Source of the DNA: a bacterium
Lineage (GTDB): Bacteria > Planctomycetota > Planctomycetia > Planctomycetales > Planctomycetaceae
DNA length: 64,000 bases
Assembly (NCBI GenBank): GCA_016125225.1
Contig: WGME01000018.1
Coordinates: 1 to 64,000 of the forward strand
Direction: 5' to 3'
Under the pieces are notes generated by a model. It searched no databases, was not told the origin of the DNA, and saw only the letters and a list, made by a program, of their open reading frames with translations. Positions 1,826 through 12,991 of the stretch are shown here, piece after piece. Position 1 is the first letter of the stretch, and every line of letters begins with the position of its first letter. The translations under genes and the position numbers were made by a program.

Positions 1826-2866
1826 CTAGAATTCGCCCAGAACTTCGCCGCCACTGCGGGTGCCCAGGCTTCGCCAGATCTGACGGTCGATGTTCTCGGA
1901 AACCGATCGACCCGAACCATCACCAAGCAAGACCTGTACGATGCCCTCGTGCCAACTTCTCGAGGTGATTGCGGCGTAAGTGATACTGGTTTGGCCTTCG
2001 TTGCCATTCACGTAATCAATGTCGTACGTCGTACCAGAGACAGTATGCGGACAGTTGCTATTCGGTCCTAATGTGGTTGTGAACGCCGTAAAGGCTGGAC
2101 TGGCGGCGAAATAGTAAGAGTGCCCGGTTTGTACGACAGGGGCCCCCGGTGAGATTGCTGACAACGCCGTGGGTGATATCGGTGCCGTGGCCGTTGGCGT
2201 TCCACCAAGAATGTAGGGTTGCTGCGTCTTCACTTCGGCAAACGCGAGGGTGTTGCTGGTCCCATCGGTTACATCGCGAATCCCCAGGGCCCCGTTGGGT
2301 TGAAACACACCGCTCCCATGTCGACCGCTGGGGTCCCAGACCAGCCATTCCCCATAATTCGCGCCATAGCTGCAACCCCAGCTGGATTCATTCCCAGGGG
2401 GAACGAGACTCCGGGGGTTCGGATCGCTGGGGCAAAGTGTCGCAGCAACTTTCGTCTGGTAAATCTGCGAGAGAATGGTGGGGGCGTTCAGATAACCCCC
2501 TTCTGACCACGGGAAAAACGCCCCATACAACGCACTCTGATCGAGGAAATTCGTCAGGCGCGCCACGATCGAAGGATTCACACTATAAGGTCCAGGCATG
2601 CCCGCGATGCCGGGGATGTACGTTCCGGCCGGGGGAAACCGCGTGTAAGTGTCGTGGTAGGCATGCAGAGCCAGTCCCAGTTGCTTCAGATTATTGCGGC
2701 ATTCGGTCCGCCGCGCGGCTTCTCGGGCCTGTTGAACGGCTGGCAATAACAAGGCAATCAATATTGCAATAATGGCTATCACCACCAGCAATTCAATCAG
2801 CGTGAAACCACGAGACTTTGGCGGAATGTGGCGACGACAAACAATCTTGGAGGACGTATTTAACAT
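1826..2866 (-). CDS. DUF1559 family prepilin-like protein
   Basis: Encodes 346 residues. A type IV prepilin N-terminus follows a short basic leader: RG then [20 protein letters not shown], with the +5 glutamate after the predicted prepilin-peptidase cut. [14 protein letters not shown] follows, then [15 protein letters not shown], the hallmark of the DUF1559 (SBP_bac_10) family that is heavily expanded in Planctomycetes. The C-terminal part contains [11 protein letters not shown] and [13 protein letters not shown], the conserved H-x-G...DGS end signature. The role is unknown; it is presumed pseudopilin-like or surface-associated and processed by PilD-type peptidase. A sigma-70-like promoter lies about 95 bases upstream. 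Confidence 0.93.
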
Positions 2867-3030: not shown

Positions 3031-3453
3031 TCAATCCGCAACGGCAAGCAGATCCTTCAGCGACTGCTCTTTCACATAATCTCCCGGTTTGCGGCCGTGT
3101 TTGTTTGTGAGACTCGGATCTGCCCCCGCAGCGAGGAGCATGCGGATGATTGCCGTCGCCTCGGCCTGCCGTTCCGCAGTCTCTGGGGCTCCCGTTGTTA
3201 TCACGGCTCGATGTAACGGAGTGGACCCCGACCGACGGCACGCCTGATTCACATTCGCTCCGTGTTCGATCAATGTCTGCACGGCTATCACCGAACGAAA
3301 GCGGACCGCGTGATGCAACGCCGTCACGCCGTTCTTGTCACAGGCATGAATGTCGGCCCCATCCGCCAGCAACTGCAAGAGGCGTTCACGCTGGTCGTGC
3401 GGGTCAGGATGCCGCTCGGTACAAATCTCTGATAAAGGCAGGATGGAACTCAT
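3031..3453 (-). CDS. Ankyrin repeat protein
   Basis: Encodes 140 residues from ATG 3453 (MSSILPLSEIC). At least three ankyrin units are visible: LLQLLADGADIHACDKNG, VTALHHAVRF...TLIEHGANVNQ, and STPLHRAVI...RMLLAAGADPSLTNKHG. The TPLH/TALHHA turns and the GAD/GAN loop are typical of the fold. It probably mediates protein-protein contacts in the cytoplasm, as no signal peptide is seen. An alternative start at 3495 adds 14 residues and would bring the gene to within 5 bases of the HAD phosphatase stop. The two genes are therefore probably co-transcribed. Confidence 0.8.
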   Translation of the reverse strand: MSSILPLSEICTERHPDPHDQRERLLQLLADGADIHACDKNGVTALHHAVRFRSVIAVQTLIEHGANVNQACRRSGSTPLHRAVITTGAPETAERQAEATAIIRMLLAAGADPSLTNKHGRKPGDYVKEQSLKDLLAVAD

Positions 3454-3499
3454 GGCGGTTACGCCCGCTGGAGCACGGTGTTCTGCTGACATCATCCCA

Positions 3500-4135
3500 T
3501 CACGCGGACAGGCATTCCAGCAATCCCCGCAATTGCGACATCTCCGTGAAGGTGTGCTCGGCGGGATGATCAGTTGGCGTATTCGCCGGGTTGTAATGCA
3601 GTGTCCGCATGCCGGCCGCGAGACCGGCGGCCAGACCCACCTCGCTGTCTTCAATGACGACACATTGATTCGGAGGGAACCCCATCGCTTTCGCCGCGTG
3701 CAGGAACAACCCAGGATCGGGTTTCCAGCACTGCACTTCATAGGCACTGAATAACCGCTCCCCGAAATGCGGAGCGAGTCCGGTCACCGCCAGGGCATGA
3801 CGAATTTTAGCCAGCGGCGCACTCGAGGCGACACACATCGGTTGAGGCAACGCGGCCAGCAACTCAGCGACACCAGGATTGGCCTGCAACCGGGTATCAA
3901 ACAACTCCGCGACCCGCTTTCGATACCGGGGTTCAAAGTCGGCAGGAACCTCACGCCCCAGCCGTGATTCGAGATCAACGACAATGTTCGCAAACTTCCG
4001 CCCGCGATACTTCATGGCCATCGATTCAATCGTGTCCTCCAATTCCGGCAGCAGATCAAGATACCCCTGCTGACACAGGCCCTCGCTGTCCACAAGGGTG
4101 CCATCAAGATCGAAGAGAAGGCAAATGTCCGGCAT
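3500..4135 (-). CDS. HAD superfamily phosphatase (subclass IA)
   Basis: Encodes 211 residues. Motif I is FDLDGTLVDSE with nucleophile Asp9 and Asp11. Motif II is the Ser in CVASSAP, motif III is the Lys in CWKPDPGLF, and motif IV is VIEDSEVG. The alpha-helical cap between motifs I and II places it in the beta-phosphoglucomutase/YniC-like HAD-IA group, which act on small sugar phosphates. The exact substrate cannot be told from sequence. It is directly upstream of the ankyrin gene on the same strand. Confidence 0.88.
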   Translation of the reverse strand: MPDICLLFDLDGTLVDSEGLCQQGYLDLLPELEDTIESMAMKYRGRKFANIVVDLESRLGREVPADFEPRYRKRVAELFDTRLQANPGVAELLAALPQPMCVASSAPLAKIRHALAVTGLAPHFGERLFSAYEVQCWKPDPGLFLHAAKAMGFPPNQCVVIEDSEVGLAAGLAAGMRTLHYNPANTPTDHPAEHTFTEMSQLRGLLECLSA

Positions 4136-4330
4136 GTTCCGTTAGTTTCCGATAACTGATCAGATCTTTGACTCAGGCAGCCGAAGTCCGTCGGCGATGA
4201 GTCGAGCGATGCACGAGTTGACGTAGGGTACTCCCACTGACCATTCTGATGCAGCGCGGTCATTCTTGCAAAAAGGTTGCTAACATTGCCATCTCCGAAA
4301 GGTGTTCCCGAATTTCAGGCACCGGCCGCG

Positions 4331-5503
4331 ATGCATTCGGTAAACGGTACGCCGTCGTCGTTGGTCAACGGCACGACACATATCGATCCGGTTCCTAGTA
4401 CACCACCGGTCAGCATCGATGTCCCCAAAACGTTGGATTCGCTCCAGATCTTGCGAGCTTGGGCGGCTTTCATGGTTGTCGCCGTACACTTGGGGATGGA
4501 CACGGAACAACGCTATGGAACATGGATCCTGCCGAAGTTTACCCAGGCAGGCATCATCGGCGTTGATGTTTTCTTCTGCCTAAGCGGCTTCATCATGTAT
4601 TACACCAGTTGGCGACGGTTTGGTGTAGCGAATGCCGTTCGACAGTTTTTCTACCGACGACTGGTTCGTATCTATCCCATCTATTGGATTGCCACACTGC
4701 TGCTGATGGCGTTGGCATGTTGGCCGGAAAGTCACCTGAGTACCGGCTCCCTGTCAATGCGTCGTGTGATCACCTCGTTCCTGTTACTGCCTCAATCTGG
4801 TAACCCTATACTCGTTCAGGGATGGACGCTGGTGCATGAAGTCCGCTTTTATGCCATCTTTGGTGTCATGCTGTTACTGTCAAGAAGAGCCGGACTCGGG
4901 GCGATGGCTGTCTGGGCCATGCTATCCTTCGCAGTTCTGTTGACCAGCTATTTCAACCAGCCACTCCTTGATTCCGGATTACCAGCCAGAGCCATCACCT
5001 ATCTGTGCCATCCTTCGTCGATCCAGTTTGTTCTGGGTGTCGGGTCCGCGTGGATCATCTGTCATCAGAGAACACCGAAATGGCTTGATGCCTGCCTGTT
5101 GCCCGTGGCGGTGGTATTGATCGCGATTGTCGTACAATGGTTTCCCGAACTGGCACCTAAGACGAAGTACTACGCCATTACACTGTTCACGATACCAAGC
5201 ATCTTATTGATACTCGGAGCAGCCCTGGCAGAACGACGCTGGCGCCCCAAGCTTCCGGGGTTGGGCATCGCCTTGGGCAATGCGTCTTATTCCGTGTATT
5301 TGATTCATACGATGATCCTTGGACCGATGGTGTGGAACCTCTTTCCCAGTTCCGAAAGCACGTCACTCCGGCTCATCTGGGCTGGCATTTGTGTCGTAGT
5401 CATTCATCTCTTGTGTTGGCTGTTTCATATTTTCGTGGAAAATCCCATCCATACGCGAACCCTGCGCGCAACTCCCACGGTTTCTATGAGTCCGGCAAAT
5501 TGA
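4331..5503 (+). CDS. Acyltransferase 3 family integral membrane protein (OafA-like)
   Basis: Encodes 390 residues from ATG 4331; an upstream TTG at 4277 would add 18. These proteins transfer acyl groups (often O-acetyl) to extracytoplasmic glycans. Family marks are LQILRAWAAFMVVAVHLG with the conserved R and H in TM1, GVDVFFCLSGFIMYY, RRLVRIYPIYWIATLL and, near the end, SYSVYLIHTMI. About ten hydrophobic segments are visible. No glycan biosynthesis genes are adjacent, so the acceptor is unknown. Confidence 0.88.
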   Translation: MHSVNGTPSSLVNGTTHIDPVPSTPPVSIDVPKTLDSLQILRAWAAFMVVAVHLGMDTEQRYGTWILPKFTQAGIIGVDVFFCLSGFIMYYTSWRRFGVANAVRQFFYRRLVRIYPIYWIATLLLMALACWPESHLSTGSLSMRRVITSFLLLPQSGNPILVQGWTLVHEVRFYAIFGVMLLLSRRAGLGAMAVWAMLSFAVLLTSYFNQPLLDSGLPARAITYLCHPSSIQFVLGVGSAWIICHQRTPKWLDACLLPVAVVLIAIVVQWFPELAPKTKYYAITLFTIPSILLILGAALAERRWRPKLPGLGIALGNASYSVYLIHTMILGPMVWNLFPSSESTSLRLIWAGICVVVIHLLCWLFHIFVENPIHTRTLRATPTVSMSPAN

Positions 5504-5876
5504 GCGTGCCATGGAGTGCTCGATTGCGGCTCTGCAGCGTATCTCGCATGTGGTGATCTGTTCGGCGGGGAGCGATTGCGTCCGGTTCGGGACGTGACGG
5601 TGTTCGTGCCGTGCGGTTCCTGCTCGAACTGTGCTTCGGATTTGATCCGCTGAAGCAACCCAACCGCACCTTTTGAAGCCGGAGTCGGTGTTCGCACCCT
5701 TGACTTGTCAGTCCTGTTGACCCGATCACCCTCGATCCGTGCGTAGGCTGCCGAGATGACGACCACCGCAGTCGGTCATCTCTGAATGACGGAAACCAAT
5801 CTCCGCCGAATGGGTCTGATGCGCTCACTATTTAGCCCCCCGCGGCTTGTCAAAGGGGGAATATCGGCGTTGGCTG
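5504..5876. other. Intergenic region, no convincing gene
   Basis: 373 bases between convergent genes. The open frames here have Arg/Ser/Pro-rich, low-quality translations and look like shadows. No clear hairpin-plus-T-run terminator was seen. Confidence 0.5.
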
Positions 5877-6230
5877 CTAGGACTTCAACACCGAAGATTC
5901 CAGCATCCACTTGGGCATCGGAATCGCGGGATGCCGAATGATCAGCAACAGCACCCCCGCAAGGATCACGAGAATGGGGATTTCGATATCAATCGAGATG
6001 CGTCCGGTCTGGCGCAACACCGATAGCAGACTCATGATGATGAAAAAGGAACCGACCACAACAGTGGCTTTGTTGAATCCACCAACCAGAAACGTCAGCA
6101 GACCCACCCCCGCAATCCCCAGAGTCCAGACCCAATCGATTCCGGGAACAATGTCCAAAGTCGTCAATAACCAGCCACTCCCGACGATAATCAACAGCAG
6201 GGGAATCACCAGCGACTTGGCATTGGACAT
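5877..6230 (-). CDS. Small integral membrane protein (LiaF/DUF5668-like)
   Basis: Encodes 117 residues from ATG 6230 (MSNAKSLVIPLL); a start at 6245 is also possible. Four hydrophobic segments fill the protein: SLVIPLLLIIVGSGWLL, WTLGIAGVGLLTFLVGG, TVVVGSFFIIMSLLSVL and IPILVILAGVLLLII. The pattern resembles the transmembrane part of LiaF-type or DUF5668 envelope-stress proteins, but no C-terminal domain is present. Function unknown. Confidence 0.7.
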   Translation of the reverse strand: MSNAKSLVIPLLLIIVGSGWLLTTLDIVPGIDWVWTLGIAGVGLLTFLVGGFNKATVVVGSFFIIMSLLSVLRQTGRISIDIEIPILVILAGVLLLIIRHPAIPMPKWMLESSVLKS

Positions 6231-6425
6231 GAGTAATCCCGTCACGCAATTCCATGTTCATGGAAAATGAGAGTTGTCGCGATCAGTATGAGGGGCGATG
6301 GATGCAAACTTCAACTCTCAATCGCGTGTAGGGATTCACCATCTGCATCAGAATGGCAGCGTCCCATCTGATGAAAAGTTGCGATAGAGGTCGACTGTTG
6401 GCCTTCACCCACGCATGATCGATCA

Positions 6426-7388
6426 TCACACCGTGCGATGCGTGAACGGACCAACCACCGTACCAGCCGAGATTGTTACGGCTCCATCAAGCACCACGTG
6501 CGGGCCGATGCGGCAGTCGCTGCCAATCTGTACCGGGCCACGGATGATCGTGAAGGGTTCGATGACCGTGTCGGCTCCAATTTCCGCCCGGGCATCAATG
6601 TGCGTCAACGTCGGGTCAACAATCGTCACGCCGGAGAGCATCAACCGTTGCAATGTGGCCTGTTGAATGGTCTGCGTTACCTCGGCCAACTGCACGCGCG
6701 TGTTGACCCCGAGGGCTTCAACGATGTCGAAAGCTGTCAGAGCAAGTACCGGATGCCCGGCATTCAGCAGCACTTTCGGACAGTCGGTGAGATAGTATTC
6801 GGCCTGGGCATTATTGGGCCGGATCTCATCGAGGGCTCCCAGCAGCTTCTGGGAATCGAACGCATAGCAGCCGGTGTTGATTTCCTGAATCGACTTCTCT
6901 TCCGGCGAGGCATCTTTCTCTTCGACGATCTTGACGAAGTTCCGATTGCTATCGCGGACGATACGGCCGAGTCCCTGATTGGCCGGAGTGACGGCCGTGC
7001 CGATGATCGACGCGGCGGAGTGTTCAGCTTGTGCTGTTAATAACTTCGTCAGCGATTCCGGCTTCAACAGCGGGGTATCACCGGCCAGGATCAACACCGG
7101 TCCGTGATGACTGGCGAGTTGATCACGGCACATCATCACCGCATGCCCAGTTCCCTTTTGCTCGGACTGCAACGCGAATTCGATATCGGCATGTCGAGCC
7201 AATGAGGCTTGCACCAGATCGGCCCGGTGCCCGACCACGGCGACGATGCGGGTGGCTCCTGCTGCCCGGGCGGCATCAATCACATAGTCAATCATCGGCC
7301 GACCGCAGACTTCGTGCAGCACTTTGGGCAAGGCCGACTTCATGCGTGTGCTTTTGCCAGCCGCCAGAATGATCGCCAATGCAGACAT
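6426..7388 (-). CDS. glmU: UDP-N-acetylglucosamine pyrophosphorylase (GlmU N-terminal type)
   Basis: Encodes 320 residues from ATG 7388, preceded by GACGAGG. It makes UDP-GlcNAc from GlcNAc-1-phosphate and UTP for peptidoglycan and LPS. The nucleotidyltransferase domain (about 1-230) shows LAAGKSTRMKSALPKVLHEV, the QKGTGHAV loop and AGDTPLL with the metal-binding Asp. From about residue 255 a few left-handed beta-helix turns are present (IGADTVIEPFTIIRG, IGSDCRIGPHVVLDG), and then the protein stops. Full GlmU is about 450 residues, so the acetyltransferase active site is missing. A separate GlcN-1-P acetyltransferase would be needed elsewhere, or the role is that of a stand-alone pyrophosphorylase. 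Confidence 0.9.
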   Translation of the reverse strand: MSALAIILAAGKSTRMKSALPKVLHEVCGRPMIDYVIDAARAAGATRIVAVVGHRADLVQASLARHADIEFALQSEQKGTGHAVMMCRDQLASHHGPVLILAGDTPLLKPESLTKLLTAQAEHSAASIIGTAVTPANQGLGRIVRDSNRNFVKIVEEKDASPEEKSIQEINTGCYAFDSQKLLGALDEIRPNNAQAEYYLTDCPKVLLNAGHPVLALTAFDIVEALGVNTRVQLAEVTQTIQQATLQRLMLSGVTIVDPTLTHIDARAEIGADTVIEPFTIIRGPVQIGSDCRIGPHVVLDGAVTISAGTVVGPFTHRTV

Positions 7389-7410
7389 CGAGACCTCGTC
7401 CCTGGTGTGA

Positions 7411-7445
7411 AAACAAGAAAGCCCGGAGAGACGCATCCCCGGGCT
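7411..7445 (-). terminator. Intrinsic terminator of the outer-membrane protein gene
   Basis: On the minus strand AGCCCGGGG pairs with CTCCGGGCT (nine pairs including one wobble) across an 8-base loop, followed by TTCTTGTTTT. It sits between the barrel gene stop and the glmU start, so it separates the two same-strand genes. Confidence 0.65.
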
Positions 7446-7465
7446 TTGCATGATAGCAAGTCGAA

Positions 7466-8605
7466 TCAGAAGCGGATGCCGCCGCGGATGAGAACCTGGT
7501 TTCCGGCATCGAACTTCTGAATGTTGTCTTCGAACTCAAAGTTACGCCCCAGATCCCAGGCGACTTCGATGAATTTATCAAAGGTCACATGATCGCTACG
7601 CAGACCCAAGGCCAACCGCCAGTCTTCGTATTGCACGCGGTTGCTGGGTCCGCTGCCGACCGGGGTCAGGTCGATCTGATAGGCTTCGACATTGTATTCG
7701 CTGGAAAGGTACAACCAGTGATGACCACCCCAGAAGTGGCCCACAAACCGACTGATGCGAGCCTTCGGGAACAACAGGCGGAACTCCCACACATCGTTCG
7801 GCGTATAAACCACCCCCGCATGCGGGATGATGATGTCATCGACGCGGTCCCAATACTGCACGCCGAGAACGAGCATCAACGTGGGGTCAACCTGATAGGT
7901 CGCCGCAATGCGGGTATCGAAGTTCCAGGCATTCGAAGTGAGGTTCGATTCCGTGTCGGTATTGATCGAGGGATTGAAATCGAAGTCGAGGGTCCAGCCG
8001 TTGGACTTCACCTTGAGCAGTTCCAGATCCCAGCCGAAGCGGTAAAGATTGACCCGGTATGTATTCGACAACGGGCCACCAAAGTTCCAGGCGCGATAGT
8101 CGAACTGTGGAGCCGACGAGAAGACCCAGCCAGGCACAAACGGAGAGTTGTGACGCAGTTCGGTATCGAGTTCGAACATCTCGACATCGGAACCAAGATC
8201 TTTGACTGGGGCTTGCGGAATGTAGCCGATTTCCAGCTTCGGAATATAACCAAACCGATAGGGTTGCGGCCCATTCACTCCAGAGAAGACCGGCCCGCAC
8301 GGCTGACCATACACACCGGGACCAAAGGCCGGATCACCGCCATACATGAACGGGTCTTGTCCCGCGGGCATGCCGAACGATTGATACGGGTCGGCCCCCA
8401 TCGGTGCTTCCAGCGTGGGTCCCATCGTCGGCCCTCCGGGTTGCATGGTCCCGGCACCGGAATTGAACGGATCATAAATCGGAGTGGGACTTTGCCCGCG
8501 AATTGCTGCCGCCAGTTTGGGAGAAAATTCGTACACCGACGGCATTGTTCCGGCTTGCGGATCGGCCGACAGCAGCAGCATCAGGCAAACGCTGAATGGA
8601 TTCAC
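7466..8605 (-). CDS. Predicted outer-membrane beta-barrel protein
   Basis: Encodes 379 residues from GTG 8605 (preceded by GGGGCG). The start gives a hydrophobic N-terminus (VNPFSVCLMLLLSADPQAG) that can act as a signal peptide. A Gly/Pro-rich region (about 45-120) is followed by alternating aromatic/polar strands such as WTLDFDFNPSINTDT, TLMLVLGVQYWDRVDD and HHWLYLSSEYNVEAYQIDL. The C-terminus, QVLIRGGIRF, ends in Phe as in BAM-assembled barrels. No specific family was recognised. A weak promoter (TTGACG, 17 bases, AAAAAT) lies upstream. It is divergent from the M50/SecA-like operon. Confidence 0.65.
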   Translation of the reverse strand: MNPFSVCLMLLLSADPQAGTMPSVYEFSPKLAAAIRGQSPTPIYDPFNSGAGTMQPGGPTMGPTLEAPMGADPYQSFGMPAGQDPFMYGGDPAFGPGVYGQPCGPVFSGVNGPQPYRFGYIPKLEIGYIPQAPVKDLGSDVEMFELDTELRHNSPFVPGWVFSSAPQFDYRAWNFGGPLSNTYRVNLYRFGWDLELLKVKSNGWTLDFDFNPSINTDTESNLTSNAWNFDTRIAATYQVDPTLMLVLGVQYWDRVDDIIIPHAGVVYTPNDVWEFRLLFPKARISRFVGHFWGGHHWLYLSSEYNVEAYQIDLTPVGSGPSNRVQYEDWRLALGLRSDHVTFDKFIEVAWDLGRNFEFEDNIQKFDAGNQVLIRGGIRF

Positions 8606-8958
8606 AGTTCGCCCCGGAATTGGGAGAGAAGGGATCTGGCGAGAGACGGCTTGAGCCGAACTCAAAAGCGGCGGGATTTTTTCCGAAGTTGTCCGGGGCG
8701 TCAACACCAACTCCGGCCTAATTCGCCGACTTTTTCGGTCATGTTCCATTGCGAAGGTCTCAAAATCAGCAGTTCTTGCCGATCGGGGAACGATCGAACC
8801 TCTCGCGGTCAGAAAGCGAGACGTTCGATAGTCAGACGGAAGTGTCATTCCGAACCGGGCTTTACAGAGGGTTTGCTCCCGAGTTATTCCTCACATGTTC
8901 ATTCCACCAGTCCATTGCCCGCCACTCGGCGGTGGCGGCTTTTCCATCCACAATCCTG
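8606..8958. promoter_or_regulatory. Divergent intergenic region upstream of the M50-HlyD/SecA-like operon
   Basis: 353 bases between the barrel gene (minus) and the protease-fusion gene (plus). The plus frame is open through much of it, but the translation (Ser/Arg-rich) does not look like part of the protein. The only notable structure is the hairpin at 8919-8942 just before the start codon. Confidence 0.5.
8919..8942 (+). repeat. Terminator-like hairpin in the leader of the M50-HlyD gene
   Basis: CCGCCAC and GTGGCGG form a 7-bp GC stem with loop TCGGCG, followed by C and TTTT. It ends 16 bases before the ATG at 8959. The same 24 bases occur at 52782-52805 between convergent genes. In this position it could attenuate expression or block ribosome access; equally it could be a stray copy of a dispersed repeat. 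Confidence 0.6.
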
Positions 8959-11109
8959 ATGTCGACGGTAACCCTGGGACTGCCGTTTCGCATGCGTCCC
9001 GACCTGCAAGTGACGCCGGTCGACTGGGCGGGAGAGCGATTGTATGTCGTGAAAGATCCCCTGGCGTTGCGATACTTTCACTTGCCCGCGACGCAGTTTG
9101 CCGCCCTGGAAGCCTTGCAGGATTGCTCCAGCCTGAGTGCCTGGAGTGAGCGGCTGACCGAAACGCCAGAGAACCCCACATTAGCGCAATTGAGACACTG
9201 GCTGCAGGAGTTCCTGCAATGGGGGCTGGTCACACGCGAGCGCTGGGTGGAACGTGATCATCGGCTCGAATCGGAAAAGCCGTGGTGGTCGCATCTGGCC
9301 CGCTACATCCAGAACCCGTTGTATCTGCAGTTTCCCGGCTTCGACCCATCGCCCTGGCTGGACCCGCTGCATCGATGTTGCGGTTGGGTACTTTCGACAC
9401 CGGGCGTGTGTGGATCGCTGTTACTGGCCCTCATCATCTGGCTGGGAACATTGACCCACTTCGCCACGTTCACCCATAGGCTTCCCGATTGGACACAGTT
9501 GCAACACTGGCAGACGTGGTGTTCGATCTGGCTGGCCATAGGCGTCACGAAGATCATTCATGAACTCGTGCATGGACTGGCGGCCCGCCGTTATGGTGCC
9601 GAATGCCATGCCCTCGGGTTCGCACTGATTCTCTTCAGTCCGGCGTTGTATTGCGATGTGTCCGATGCTTGGCGGTTGCCGCGTCGCTGGCCTCGTATGG
9701 CGATTGCCTTGGCGGGCATCTGGGCGGAAACCGTGTTGGGGGCCAGCACATTGCTGATGTGGTGGGGCACGCGCCCAAGCCTGTTTCACGACTGGTGCTG
9801 GCATGTGACCGCCGTCAGCAGCATCGCCACCTTGATGATCAACTTGAATCCGCTGGCCAGATACGACGGCTACTTCCTGCTGTGTGATGCGTTCGGGTTG
9901 CCGAACCTGAGGCAACAGGCCGATGCCGTCGTTGAACAGGATCTGCGACAGTGGGTGCATGGGCCGCAAGGGAACTCGATGCCGATCGCACTCCCCCTTC
10001 GATTACGGGTGGGGCTGTGGTGTTACGCGGCGGGCTCGTGGGTCTATCGCATCATGATGATCGTCTCGATGGGCTATGGACTGGCCACTCTGTTGGAACC
10101 AGTGGGGCTGGAAGCTTTGACCTGGATCTATGCGGCCATGAGTCTTGGTTCATTGGCCTGGCTCACTGTTCGCCGCAGTGGGAAGATTTTCGCGAATGGA
10201 TCGGGTCCTCGACGTTGGCTGAGTGCGTTCGGCGTCATGTCATTGCTCGTCAGTGTGGGATGGTTTGCCACCACGGTTCCCATCCCCTGGCCGGAATCGG
10301 CGATGTTCGCGCTGATTCCTCAGGAACCCCAATCGGTCTATGTGACAACTCCCGGTGAATTGATTGAAATTGCCGTTCGACCGGGGGAACGAGTGGCCGC
10401 GGGACAGTTGCTGGCCCAGCTACAAAACAGCGAACTCGACCGGCAACGCCTGAATCTTCTGGTGAGTTGTGCCCAACAGGAACAGCTTGTGGAACTCGCC
10501 CGGAAGCAGCAACAACCCGGACGGCAGGAAGAAGCGCAAGCAGCACTCAATACCTTCGTCGAACAACTCGCGGAAATCGATCGCCGACGTGAGCGGCTGC
10601 AACTTCTGGCTCCGTGTGCGGGAACCGTCTTGCCACCCGATCTGATTCCGGAACCTCAGAGTTCGGATGCCGACCAACGCATGCCCCGCTGGTCGGGATC
10701 GCCACTCGAACCGGCAAATCTCGGCGCCCGGCTGGAACCCGGCACATGGCTGGCACAGATTGTTCCCGACCCGCAACCACGGGCACTGGTTTCACTGGAA
10801 CAACATCAACGGCCGGAGGTCACGCCCGGCATGCGCTGTGAACTGCAACCAACGAGACAACCACGCGAGCGTTGGTCGGGCACGGTGCTGGAAATCGCTC
10901 CCCGGGCGGATCAGTTATCGTCATTGGCTTCGTCATCATCGGAACCCGGAGCAACGAGCAAGACGTATCCCACGCTCGTTGCCATTGAAGCCGATGCCGC
11001 TACGTTTCCTCCAGGAACCACCGGACTGGCCCGCTTCATCGGCCGCCCGCGCACCTTGTGGGATCGCGGTCTGGAAGCCTTCCGGCGTGCTGTCCCCGTG
11101 GTCTGGTAA
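8959..11109 (+). CDS. PqqD-like / M50 protease / HlyD fusion membrane protein
   Basis: Encodes 716 residues from ATG 8959; ATG 8992 is an alternative, and neither has a good SD. Residues 12-95 look like a PqqD-type winged helix (RPDLQV, VVKDPLALRYFHL), the fold used as peptide-recognition element in RiPP systems. Hydrophobic segments from about 150 carry an M50 (site-2 protease) centre: HELVH at 201-205 and NLNPLARYDGYF at 295-306 with the metal-ligand Asp303. After further TM segments to about 440, residues 455-560 form a split biotinyl/lipoyl-like HlyD hairpin (GELIEIAVRPGERVAAGQLL, coiled coil, then LLAPCAGTVLPP) and an adaptor barrel to the end. The layout suggests a membrane machine that binds, possibly cuts, and exports a peptide. 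The SecA-like gene follows after 13 bases. Confidence 0.85.
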   Translation: MSTVTLGLPFRMRPDLQVTPVDWAGERLYVVKDPLALRYFHLPATQFAALEALQDCSSLSAWSERLTETPENPTLAQLRHWLQEFLQWGLVTRERWVERDHRLESEKPWWSHLARYIQNPLYLQFPGFDPSPWLDPLHRCCGWVLSTPGVCGSLLLALIIWLGTLTHFATFTHRLPDWTQLQHWQTWCSIWLAIGVTKIIHELVHGLAARRYGAECHALGFALILFSPALYCDVSDAWRLPRRWPRMAIALAGIWAETVLGASTLLMWWGTRPSLFHDWCWHVTAVSSIATLMINLNPLARYDGYFLLCDAFGLPNLRQQADAVVEQDLRQWVHGPQGNSMPIALPLRLRVGLWCYAAGSWVYRIMMIVSMGYGLATLLEPVGLEALTWIYAAMSLGSLAWLTVRRSGKIFANGSGPRRWLSAFGVMSLLVSVGWFATTVPIPWPESAMFALIPQEPQSVYVTTPGELIEIAVRPGERVAAGQLLAQLQNSELDRQRLNLLVSCAQQEQLVELARKQQQPGRQEEAQAALNTFVEQLAEIDRRRERLQLLAPCAGTVLPPDLIPEPQSSDADQRMPRWSGSPLEPANLGARLEPGTWLAQIVPDPQPRALVSLEQHQRPEVTPGMRCELQPTRQPRERWSGTVLEIAPRADQLSSLASSSSEPGATSKTYPTLVAIEADAATFPPGTTGLARFIGRPRTLWDRGLEAFRRAVPVVW

Positions 11110-11122
11110 CGAGGAACTCAAC

Positions 11123-12991
11123 ATGTGGTCCTCGTGGTTCCAGTCAAGCTCGGTCGCAAGCATCGTCGAACATTCGCGCCAGTTCGCGCTGCGTCCCGAT
11201 ATTGATCTGTTGCGGACTTCGCGACAACTGCAGGCCCTTGCGCGGGAACGCCCGCTGACGACATCGGACTACGAACGAGCGTGCGGTCTGCTGCGCGAAA
11301 CCACACGCCGCGCGCATGGCACGCCCCATTATGCCGAGCAGATTCAGGCCGCCTGGCACATGCACACGTCGGCCGCGGTCGAGATGGAAACCGGCGAAGG
11401 GAAGACGCTCACCGCCTTGATGGTTGCCTATCTGCTCGCACTGCCGGGCCGAGGCTGTCATGTTCTCACCGCGAATGATTACCTCGCTGAACGGGATTGC
11501 CAACATGCTCAACCCGTGCTGGAACGGCTGGGCCTCTCAGTCGATTGGATCGGCCAGGCCGATACTCCCGCCGAGCGTCGAATCGCGTATGCGGCTGATG
11601 TCACATTCACCACGGTCACACAAGTCGGCTTCGATCTGCTGCGTGACCGCGTGGGCAAGGCGACGGGGACTTATTTGAATGGGGCCGATGGTCCGGTTCA
11701 ACGACCGTTAGCCACGGCGGTCATTGATGAAGCCGATCTGGTGATGCTCGACGAAGCACGGACACCGCTGTTGCTGGCCGTTGCAGAACCTTTACCACCG
11801 GGACTGGTTGATGCCTGTGGATGGGCCGCCGGACTGGCCGAACAACTGCGTGCGGACGATCACTTTTTGATCTTTCCGCGACGCAAAGCCATTCAACTGA
11901 CCGAGGCGGGTTGCCAGCAGGTGCTGTTGAGTCCGCGACCGCAAAGCCTGCATGGGTCAGCCGAAAGTTTGTACCGCCAGGTGGAGCGGGCGTTGGAAGC
12001 CCGGTGGATCTATCAACGCGATCAGGATTATCTCGTCGCTGACAACAAGGTCGCGATCATCGGTGGTACTACGGGCCGAGTCCTGCAGGGGCGCCAATGG
12101 CAGAACGGCTTGCAACCCGCGATCGAATGGAAAGAACGGGCCGAGTTCTCGCCACAAACCCGGTCCAACGGATCGATCACCATTCAAACGCTGCTGAACC
12201 TCTATCCCCAGCGCTGCGGGATGAGTGGCACCTTATGGCATGATCGGCAGGAACTTCAGAACATCTATCAGTTGCACACCGTCCGCATCGCGCCGCGAGT
12301 CCCCAGCCAGCGACGCCGGCGGCCCACGCGCTGCTTTGCCAGCCTGTCCGCGAAAGTGGAGGCGATTGTCCGAGAGTTGATAATGTTGCATCGAGAGCAA
12401 CGTGCGGTCTTGGTCGGCGCGCCTTCAATTGAATCGTCGGAAGCATTGGCAGCCGCCTTAACGAGCCAGCAGCTTCCCTTTGAACTCTTGACCGCCCGGG
12501 AACCGGAACGGGAAGCGGAGATTGTCGCACGAGCCGGTCAACCGGGGAACATCACCATATCCACCAACATGGCTGGTCGCGGGACCGATATTCAAATTGC
12601 CGATGCCGTCCGTCAGACCGGAGGACTGCATGTCATTGTCGCCGGGTTGCAGGCCAGTCCACGGACCGATCGACAGTTGATCGGTCGGACTGCGCGACAA
12701 GGCGACCCAGGCACATGGCAGGAGTTTCTTTCCTACGACGATGAACTCTTTCAACAGTGGCAGCCCGAGACGGCCGCCCGATGGAAACGGCAGGCTCGTA
12801 TAAACCCGCAAGGTGAAATTGCCCCTCGACATCGCCGCCGCTTTGCCGCCGTGCAAGACATCCTGTCACGGCAGCAGCAGCAACAACGACAACAGCTATT
12901 CCGCCAGACCCGTGAGATCGATCGCTGGGCCCAATCGGTGGGGCTCGACCCGTTACTGGAATGGCTCGACGAAGACCGTCAGGCCGCCTGA
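11123..12991 (+). CDS. Minimal SecA-like translocase ATPase
   Basis: Encodes 622 residues from ATG 11123 with SD GAGGAA six bases upstream. NBD1 has Walker A METGEGKT (88-95), VLTANDYLAERD (114-125) and DEAD (202-205) followed by LDEARTPLLL. A preprotein-crosslinking-like region follows, including AIEWKERAEFSPQTRSNGSI and GMSGTL. NBD2 has TNMAGRGTD (about 481-489) and RQLIGRTARQGDPG (517-530) with the arginine finger. Only about 90 residues follow, against roughly 300 in housekeeping SecA. Most of the helical scaffold and wing and the Cys-rich zinc tail are absent, so it is not the essential SecA. Close coupling to the M50-HlyD gene suggests the two act together in export. Confidence 0.88.
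   Translation: MWSSWFQSSSVASIVEHSRQFALRPDIDLLRTSRQLQALARERPLTTSDYERACGLLRETTRRAHGTPHYAEQIQAAWHMHTSAAVEMETGEGKTLTALMVAYLLALPGRGCHVLTANDYLAERDCQHAQPVLERLGLSVDWIGQADTPAERRIAYAADVTFTTVTQVGFDLLRDRVGKATGTYLNGADGPVQRPLATAVIDEADLVMLDEARTPLLLAVAEPLPPGLVDACGWAAGLAEQLRADDHFLIFPRRKAIQLTEAGCQQVLLSPRPQSLHGSAESLYRQVERALEARWIYQRDQDYLVADNKVAIIGGTTGRVLQGRQWQNGLQPAIEWKERAEFSPQTRSNGSITIQTLLNLYPQRCGMSGTLWHDRQELQNIYQLHTVRIAPRVPSQRRRRPTRCFASLSAKVEAIVRELIMLHREQRAVLVGAPSIESSEALAAALTSQQLPFELLTAREPEREAEIVARAGQPGNITISTNMAGRGTDIQIADAVRQTGGLHVIVAGLQASPRTDRQLIGRTARQGDPGTWQEFLSYDDELFQQWQPETAARWKRQARINPQGEIAPRHRRRFAAVQDILSRQQQQQRQQLFRQTREIDRWAQSVGLDPLLEWLDEDRQAA

Follow-up and report, generated by a model that had tools for sequence, protein, structure and literature searches.

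What would a planctomycete export with a protein that fuses a PqqD-like domain, an M50 protease and an HlyD adaptor, encoded directly in front of a stripped-down SecA? The question is raised by a stretch of 64,000 nucleotides from a member of the Planctomycetaceae (the window; assembly GCA_016125225.1, contig WGME01000018.1, positions 1 to 64,000, here C3:1-64000 of a 6.35 Mb genome). An earlier reading, made from the DNA letters alone and called the sequence-only reading below, had described the two genes and their spacing of 13 bases, and our analyses of open reading frames (ORFs), Pfam families and structure models confirm them. Both frames are open:

8959..11109, + strand: gene 1, PqqD-like/M50 protease/HlyD fusion of 716 amino acids (ATG at 8959, stop ends at 11109)
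11123..12991, + strand: gene 2, short SecA-like ATPase of 622 amino acids (ATG at 11123, stop ends at 12991)

The pair had been taken to belong to no described system, which was wrong because Kamneva, Poudel and Ward reported the module in 2015 (PMC4452313). In the parts of that paper available to us, to which all our statements about it are limited, a 'secondary SecA' module is found in five phyla; it consists of M50/HlyD, GAF/HlyD and HlyD proteins, sometimes with a TolC-type OEP, together with a SecA that lacks the wing-scaffold region, its parts lie apart in some cases, and its role is called 'completely unknown'; META1p2402-2399 is an operon of the module in Methylobacterium extorquens AM1. 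The genes are the same as those found here and the spread overlaps, and both analyses propose SecA as the ATPase and M50 as the component in the membrane; a substrate, a PqqD domain and a leader are not named in those parts. Added here are a PqqD-like leader binder, an association with cargo that carries the motif LExRxLL, accessory genes of the DUF3467 and SapC families, and further phyla. The window pair is a divergent, reduced two-gene copy of this module: its SecA lacks SecA_SW and lies outside the housekeeping SecA proteins, and an M50/HlyD gene adjoins it, and profile searches found no adjoining GAF/HlyD or HlyD gene; both are present in a second cluster of the same genome, on contig C36. 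While the module itself had already been described, its cargo signal appears to be new, and our data suggest that the module is probably a SecA-powered, type-1-like exporter for giant surface proteins with an LExRxLL leader, of which the window pair would be a reduced copy.

The product of gene 1 scores above the Pfam cut-offs for Peptidase_M50 (PF02163) and HlyD_3 (PF13437), and its HlyD_D23 (PF16576) match falls just under the cut-off. In a structure model based on a 47-sequence alignment (pLDDT 82.3), a small domain of strands and helices (residues 10-93) is followed by a membrane part made of helices (131-439) and by the HlyD adaptor (446-716), with the following features:

8980..9237, + strand: PqqD-like leader-binding domain of the RRE type (recognition element of ribosomally synthesized and post-translationally modified peptides, RiPPs), residues 8-93, predicted by structural alignment of the model
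9325..10155, + strand: membrane-embedded M50 core, residues about 123-399 (PF02163, structural alignment)
9559..9573, + strand: HExxH, H201-H205, presumably the zinc ligands and the catalytic Glu; H201, E202 and H205 are invariant in 47 sequences
9847..9867, + strand: NPLARYD, N297-D303, presumably the third-ligand motif; N297, P298, L299, R301 and D303 are invariant in 47 sequences
10255..11073, + strand: HlyD adaptor of the membrane fusion protein type, residues 433-705, with lipoyl halves that flank a helical hairpin at 491-545 (PF13437, PF16576, model)

A PqqD-like fold had been claimed for the N-terminus, and the first 93 residues are indeed so modelled. Residues 8-93 of the model align with 6jx3_B (Z 10.2, root-mean-square deviation (rmsd) 2.7, 82 of 85 residues) and with 5v1v_A (Z 10.1, rmsd 2.7, 83 residues), two lasso-peptide leader-binding domains whose structures are both titled as complexes with leader peptide. 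Pfam PqqD does not match the window protein itself but does match relatives of gene 1 in the alignments, 7 in a set of 18 and 25 in a set of 47. The predicted structure thus supports a PqqD-like leader-peptide-binding fold, and the module would share this fold with the RiPP systems that use PqqD/RRE domains. For the membrane part, residues 123-399 of the model align with the site-2 protease 3b4r_A (Z 9.3, rmsd 5.0) and residues 131-376 with SpoIVFB 8vjl_A (Z 9.6, rmsd 4.6), and the adaptor part, residues 433-705, reaches Z 12-13 with MacA, EmrA and MexA; a Foldseek search with the whole model returned adaptor proteins only among its best 50 matches. Similarity to the M50 proteins of daptide systems (NF041824; residues 34-384, 148.5 bits at a cut-off of 300) and to YydH/LiaK (NF058609; residues 154-314, score 21 at a cut-off of 225) is weak, so that the window protein, with its fused HlyD and its SecA partner, is a member of neither family.

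Gene 2 matches SecA_DEAD, SecA_PP_bind and P-loop_SecA in Pfam, and the residues of its nucleotide site are invariant among 29 short SecA proteins:

11393..11407, + strand: Walker A GEGKT, residues 91-95, invariant in 29 short SecA proteins
11726..11737, + strand: DEAD box, residues 202-205; D202, E203 and D205 are invariant in 29 and in 41 short SecA proteins
11825..12127, + strand: preprotein cross-linking domain (PPXD), residues 235-335 (PF01043, E 3.2e-20)
12827..12937, + strand: single long helix predicted by the model, residues 569-605, where normal SecA continues to the wing and the two-helix finger

In a structure model based on a 41-sequence alignment (pLDDT 91.2), residues 1-617 align to residues 14-619 of Bacillus subtilis SecA only; beyond about position 619, that protein consists of the remaining scaffold, the wing, the two-helix finger and the C-terminal tail. 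The model reaches Z 45.2 with 3jv2_B (rmsd 6.4) and Z 43.4 with the substrate-engaged 6itc_A (rmsd 3.4, 599 residues aligned). As 6itc_A is a SecY-bound SecA with substrate, the close alignment of motor, PPXD and first scaffold helix speaks for an accessory Sec function, in which the short SecA would use the ordinary SecYEG like SecA2, and M50/HlyD would only process or pass on periplasmic cargo. A second SecA with a reduced scaffold is common to the module and to SecA2 systems, and the tree of Kamneva et al. puts the clade beside actinobacterial SecA2 (PMC4452313). In the module, however, the wing and finger region is gone, and SecA is coupled to HlyD and OEP: gene 2 aligns to nothing of the wing, the second scaffold helix and the two-helix finger, the wing/scaffold for docking to SecY is thus missing, and SecA_SW has no match in gene 2 or in an alignment of 29 short SecA proteins and a single match in an alignment of 41. 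The leaders of the candidate cargo (17 read, see below) also lack a Sec-type hydrophobic core, and we regard an accessory Sec function as unlikely.

The sequence-only reading had expected this SecA to stand apart from housekeeping SecA. In a tree of 30 short and 15 housekeeping SecA proteins, SecA2 not being among them, a single branch splits the two groups (support 100/100), and the window protein lies on the short side, where it groups with the SecA proteins of L004 (the C36 cluster), L036 and L037. Besides the window copy, the source genome encodes two SecA_DEAD proteins, a long one on C5 and another on C36, which makes three in all. In another genome, a long SecA (G231:C3:581985-583520) has a DEAD-domain match that is split in two inside one open frame of 1,395 codons, possibly by an insertion or an intein.

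The module recurs in many phyla, as seen in the best 80 of 545 loci found with the M50 alignment in named genomes (mostly metagenome-assembled genomes, MAGs), a set that leans towards the SecA-M50 arrangement because the query rows came from SecA-linked loci. The 80 loci are annotated as Planctomycetota, Verrucomicrobia, Proteobacteria, Desulfo-groups, Nitrospira-type bacteria, Spirochaetales, Elusimicrobia, Rokubacteria and Omnitrophota, and the gene order is GAF-HlyD, M50, short SecA. Adjacency of the pair, as proposed, holds in this set, with SecA directly downstream of M50 in 69 of the 73 loci with room; it is less regular closer to the window, where an M50 gene is present in 17 and missing in 23 of 40 Planctomycetota loci picked from SecA hits, and SecA is present in 4 of 20 own-family M50 loci taken wider (the 20 include the own C37 copy and one locus of only 4.2 kb). 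The idea of a two-gene machine had to be given up, as the pair is elsewhere usually joined by GAF-HlyD (upstream of M50 in 70/73 loci) and a small HlyD-type adaptor (60/80), and in 23/80 and 7/17 loci also by an OEP. Accessory genes occur among the 91 loci with SecA and M50: a small DUF3467 protein (PF11950, about 110 amino acids) is encoded in or beside the operon in 24 of them, including L059, L060, L063, L132, L137 and L150, and a SapC protein (PF07277) in 12; the two never occur together, and the Pfam names derive from four (DUF3467) and two (SapC) members tested. In an Omnitrophota MAG (L146), the M50 gene is followed downstream by an ORF of more than 3,100 codons that ends at the edge of the locus; this locus is without SecA, yet a short SecA was found in the same genome.

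HlyD adaptors, an OEP channel and large repetitive cargo are features that the module shares with type 1 secretion, with HlyD and OEP together at the level of the module and only the fused HlyD in the window copy. The module differs from type 1 systems by its SecA-like motor, N-terminal leader, PqqD-like reader and M50 protease, and no conserved ABC (ATP-binding cassette) exporter is found in its loci. The giant proteins might nevertheless be ordinary type 1 substrates that exit by an ABC exporter encoded elsewhere, with the module processing, chaperoning or regulating them: one giant ORF beside a cluster has RTX repeats and Calx-beta, and GAF domains are present on one adaptor family, suggesting sensing. 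We consider this explanation very improbable, as the module has its own adaptors and often an OEP, and an ABC-exporter-like gene was found in only 4 of the 91 SecA+M50 loci (phmmer at the level of loci, with one ABC exporter as query).

Evidence for the cargo comes from large ORFs near the clusters, which often start with a basic stretch followed by LExRxLL[S/A]. Six of eight tested leader N-termini score above the cut-off of the NCBIfam family LEPR-XLL (NF012209), and members of this family occur in 42 of 50 module genomes, hand-picked from the 80 loci, and in none of 14 control genomes. In the family of G422 (the genome of L131, a Comamonadaceae bacterium; 150 genomes), M50 was counted at E <=1e-90, since the weaker matches listed extend over no more than the HlyD region of the model (positions 404-717); all 23 leader genomes have M50, and the leader occurs in 0/118 genomes without it (Fisher p 3.8e-20, uncorrected for kinship, as related genomes are counted as independent). 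In the family of G411 (the genome of L114, Puniceibacterium sediminis; 198 genomes), where the M50 set comprises all 32 matches listed, five of them partial (model positions 118-631), M50 is present in 18 of the 20 leader genomes, and the leader in 2 of 172 genomes without M50 (p 1.8e-17, with the same reservation); at a threshold of at least 460 bits, 17 of 18 M50 genomes have the leader, and three leader genomes have no M50. Adjacency of leader genes and M50 hangs less on kinship than such co-occurrence. Within 8 kb of M50 lie 39 of 53 leader genes (23/29 in the G422 family and 16/24 in the G411 family), where chance would give about 1 in 100 (an estimate for genomes of several megabases), and 38 of the 39 are on the same strand, few kb upstream or downstream. 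Leader-like ORFs were also seen in 17 of the 91 SecA+M50 loci, as opposed to 2.05 by shuffling; at least one of the 17 looks spurious (L065), and the sequence of several of the loci stops short of the point where the giant ORF begins. The open frames of the leader genes range from 740 to 17,824 codons, some possibly cut by contig ends, and such neighbours disagree with the peptide or small protein that the sequence-only reading had assumed as cargo. None of the 17 leader N-termini read (from 42 loci, the rest being missed by pattern and position limits) has a 15-residue Kyte-Doolittle mean of 1.8 or more, and this lack of a strongly hydrophobic stretch argues against plain Sec signals.

A similar signal has a longer history. 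The motif RRLxxExLExRxLLA (PF07595) was described by Studholme et al. (2004) as a novel export signal of planctomycete surface proteins, as quoted in PMC8567305, and 8 of the 10 longest proteins of Tuwongella immobilis have it (PMC8567305). The leader described above is similar to it. PF07595 matched 3 of 10 present leader N-termini weakly, all under the cut-off, and we infer that LEPR-XLL and the PF07595 motif are one signal. An exporter is not named in the available parts of PMC8567305, nor, for LEPR-XLL, in those of PMC2754498 and PMC5615132; by subject, two LEPR-XLL papers name no exporter and a PEP-CTERM paper does not mention LEPR in the parts available. In mainly open-access literature, mostly at title level, we found nothing that links leader and module.

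Gene content supports the export machine that the sequence-only reading had proposed: the module combines a predicted leader-reading fold with a protease of the intramembrane type, an adaptor for the periplasm and SecA as the motor. From the observed genes, predicted folds, motif conservation, neighbourhood, and leader co-occurrence and adjacency, we infer leader binding, cleavage, translocation and the inner-membrane path. The shortened SecA would serve as ATP motor in place of an ABC transporter. With its PqqD-like head, the M50/HlyD fusion would bind the short N-terminal leader, consensus LExRxLL[S/A], of large surface proteins, and the short SecA would thread the unfolded chain, while the M50 core may cut off the leader and/or form the passage through the inner membrane. 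Fused and separate HlyD adaptors, together with a TolC-type OEP, could then carry the chain outside in one step. Our opinion is evenly balanced on the most far-reaching form of this model, in which bacteria with an outer membrane have a distinct one-step secretion system with LExRxLL as its address label, a finger-less SecA and M50/HlyD replace SecY, the PqqD-like head reads the label, M50 cuts it, and proteins of up to about 18,000 residues are released. If true, an export signal without an exporter (2004) would be joined to an exporter without cargo (2015), some of the largest bacterial proteins would have a secretion route, a SecA would function without wing and finger, and the leader-reading PqqD fold would extend from peptide natural products to protein secretion. 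Cargo and address label are now testable.

Several observations weigh against such an exporter. Besides the uncorrected kinship in the p values and the RTX and Calx-beta giant, which fits ordinary type 1 export, NF012209 is missing in 8 of the 50 module genomes; 9/32 M50 genomes of the G422 family and 8/26 of the G411 family have no leader, and 2 leader genomes of the G411 family have no M50 match at E 1e-60 (3 if stricter). In the family of the window genome, SecA and M50 are frequently apart. NF012209 has no match in the window genome, for which a home-made motif profile was needed, and a leader gene was neither seen in the window nor found on contig C3 with that profile.

The same genome has a full module on C36 (L004, C36:268000-286000), with the following local positions:

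3252..5462: M50/HlyD
5576..7921: GAF-HlyD-family protein (second HlyD protein), with GAF itself unmatched in this member
7861..9774: short SecA
10005..10892: small HlyD adaptor, divergent from the SecA and M50 genes
11095..12990: TolC-type OEP, divergent from the SecA and M50 genes
from 13241: large ORF with leader; its Cadherin match is weak and under the cut-off

This large ORF begins with MPRNWLRS and continues to LEQRVLLAAP, matching the large ORFs that adjoin the fuller clusters of L252 and L253 (two genomes of the same genus as the window genome), which start with MPRNWLQK, in L253 after a short extension, and reach LEVRSLLAAP. The motif profile picked out 12 places in the genome with E values no higher than 1, of which 10 lie in open frames of more than 1,200 codons, and the motif is readable in four: LEQRVLLAAP (beside the C36 cluster), LEPRILLAG, LEPRVLLSG and LEQRVLLSG. 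The top match is circular because its own sequence is row 1 of the profile. In this genome a third full-length M50/HlyD relative lies on C37 (G000:C37:241343-243475, L254, 551 bits), and neither a SecA gene nor any other gene of the module was found in the 19.5 kb taken around it. A scan across a collection of genome contigs with gene 1 as the single query found no relative, and the later scan that gave the 80 loci used an alignment. With E values limited to 1e-20, M50 relatives turn up in 145 of the 150 genomes of the family. In the family's loci L036-L045 and L047-L050, the short SecA has no adjoining M50. Proteins of the LEDRTLLS, LEERTLLS or LESRTLLS type, 457 to more than 1,500 amino acids long, are found in L039-L045, and one of them has a cyclophilin-type domain.

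The window pair itself could act in the same way as the full module, perhaps borrowing adaptors and OEP from the C36 cluster. It could also be a decaying or repurposed copy without an export role, as the SecA branch is long (1.41), own-family M50 relatives are at most 36% identical among the matches listed for the 150 genomes, and searches of the window found no adaptor, OEP or leader gene beside the pair. The catalytic motifs are intact in both proteins, however, and both frames are open. Moreover, another genus of the family (L243) likewise has an M50-SecA pair, 51 bases apart, with no other module genes nearby. Decay or repurposing therefore seems a doubtful explanation, and we continue to favour a reduced copy of the exporter.

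Profile searches found no further module gene in the 64-kb window, and the neighbours of the pair, presumably glmU-like, dehydrogenase-like and leuB-like, look to us like ordinary metabolism. The divergent ORF at 7466..8605 exists, and the role as exit pore that the sequence-only reading gave to its putative barrel was dropped: neither Pfam nor NCBIfam assigns its product to a family, and none of the ORFs in 42 other loci compared is related to it, so that it is not conserved. A hit of the leader DNA pattern in the window was rejected as a leader gene, as it lies in a gene that resembles methionine sulfoxide reductase and has a lipoprotein-type start. At 1826..2866 on the - strand, the window encodes a protein with a type IV pilin-like N-terminus, which represents a common planctomycete family.

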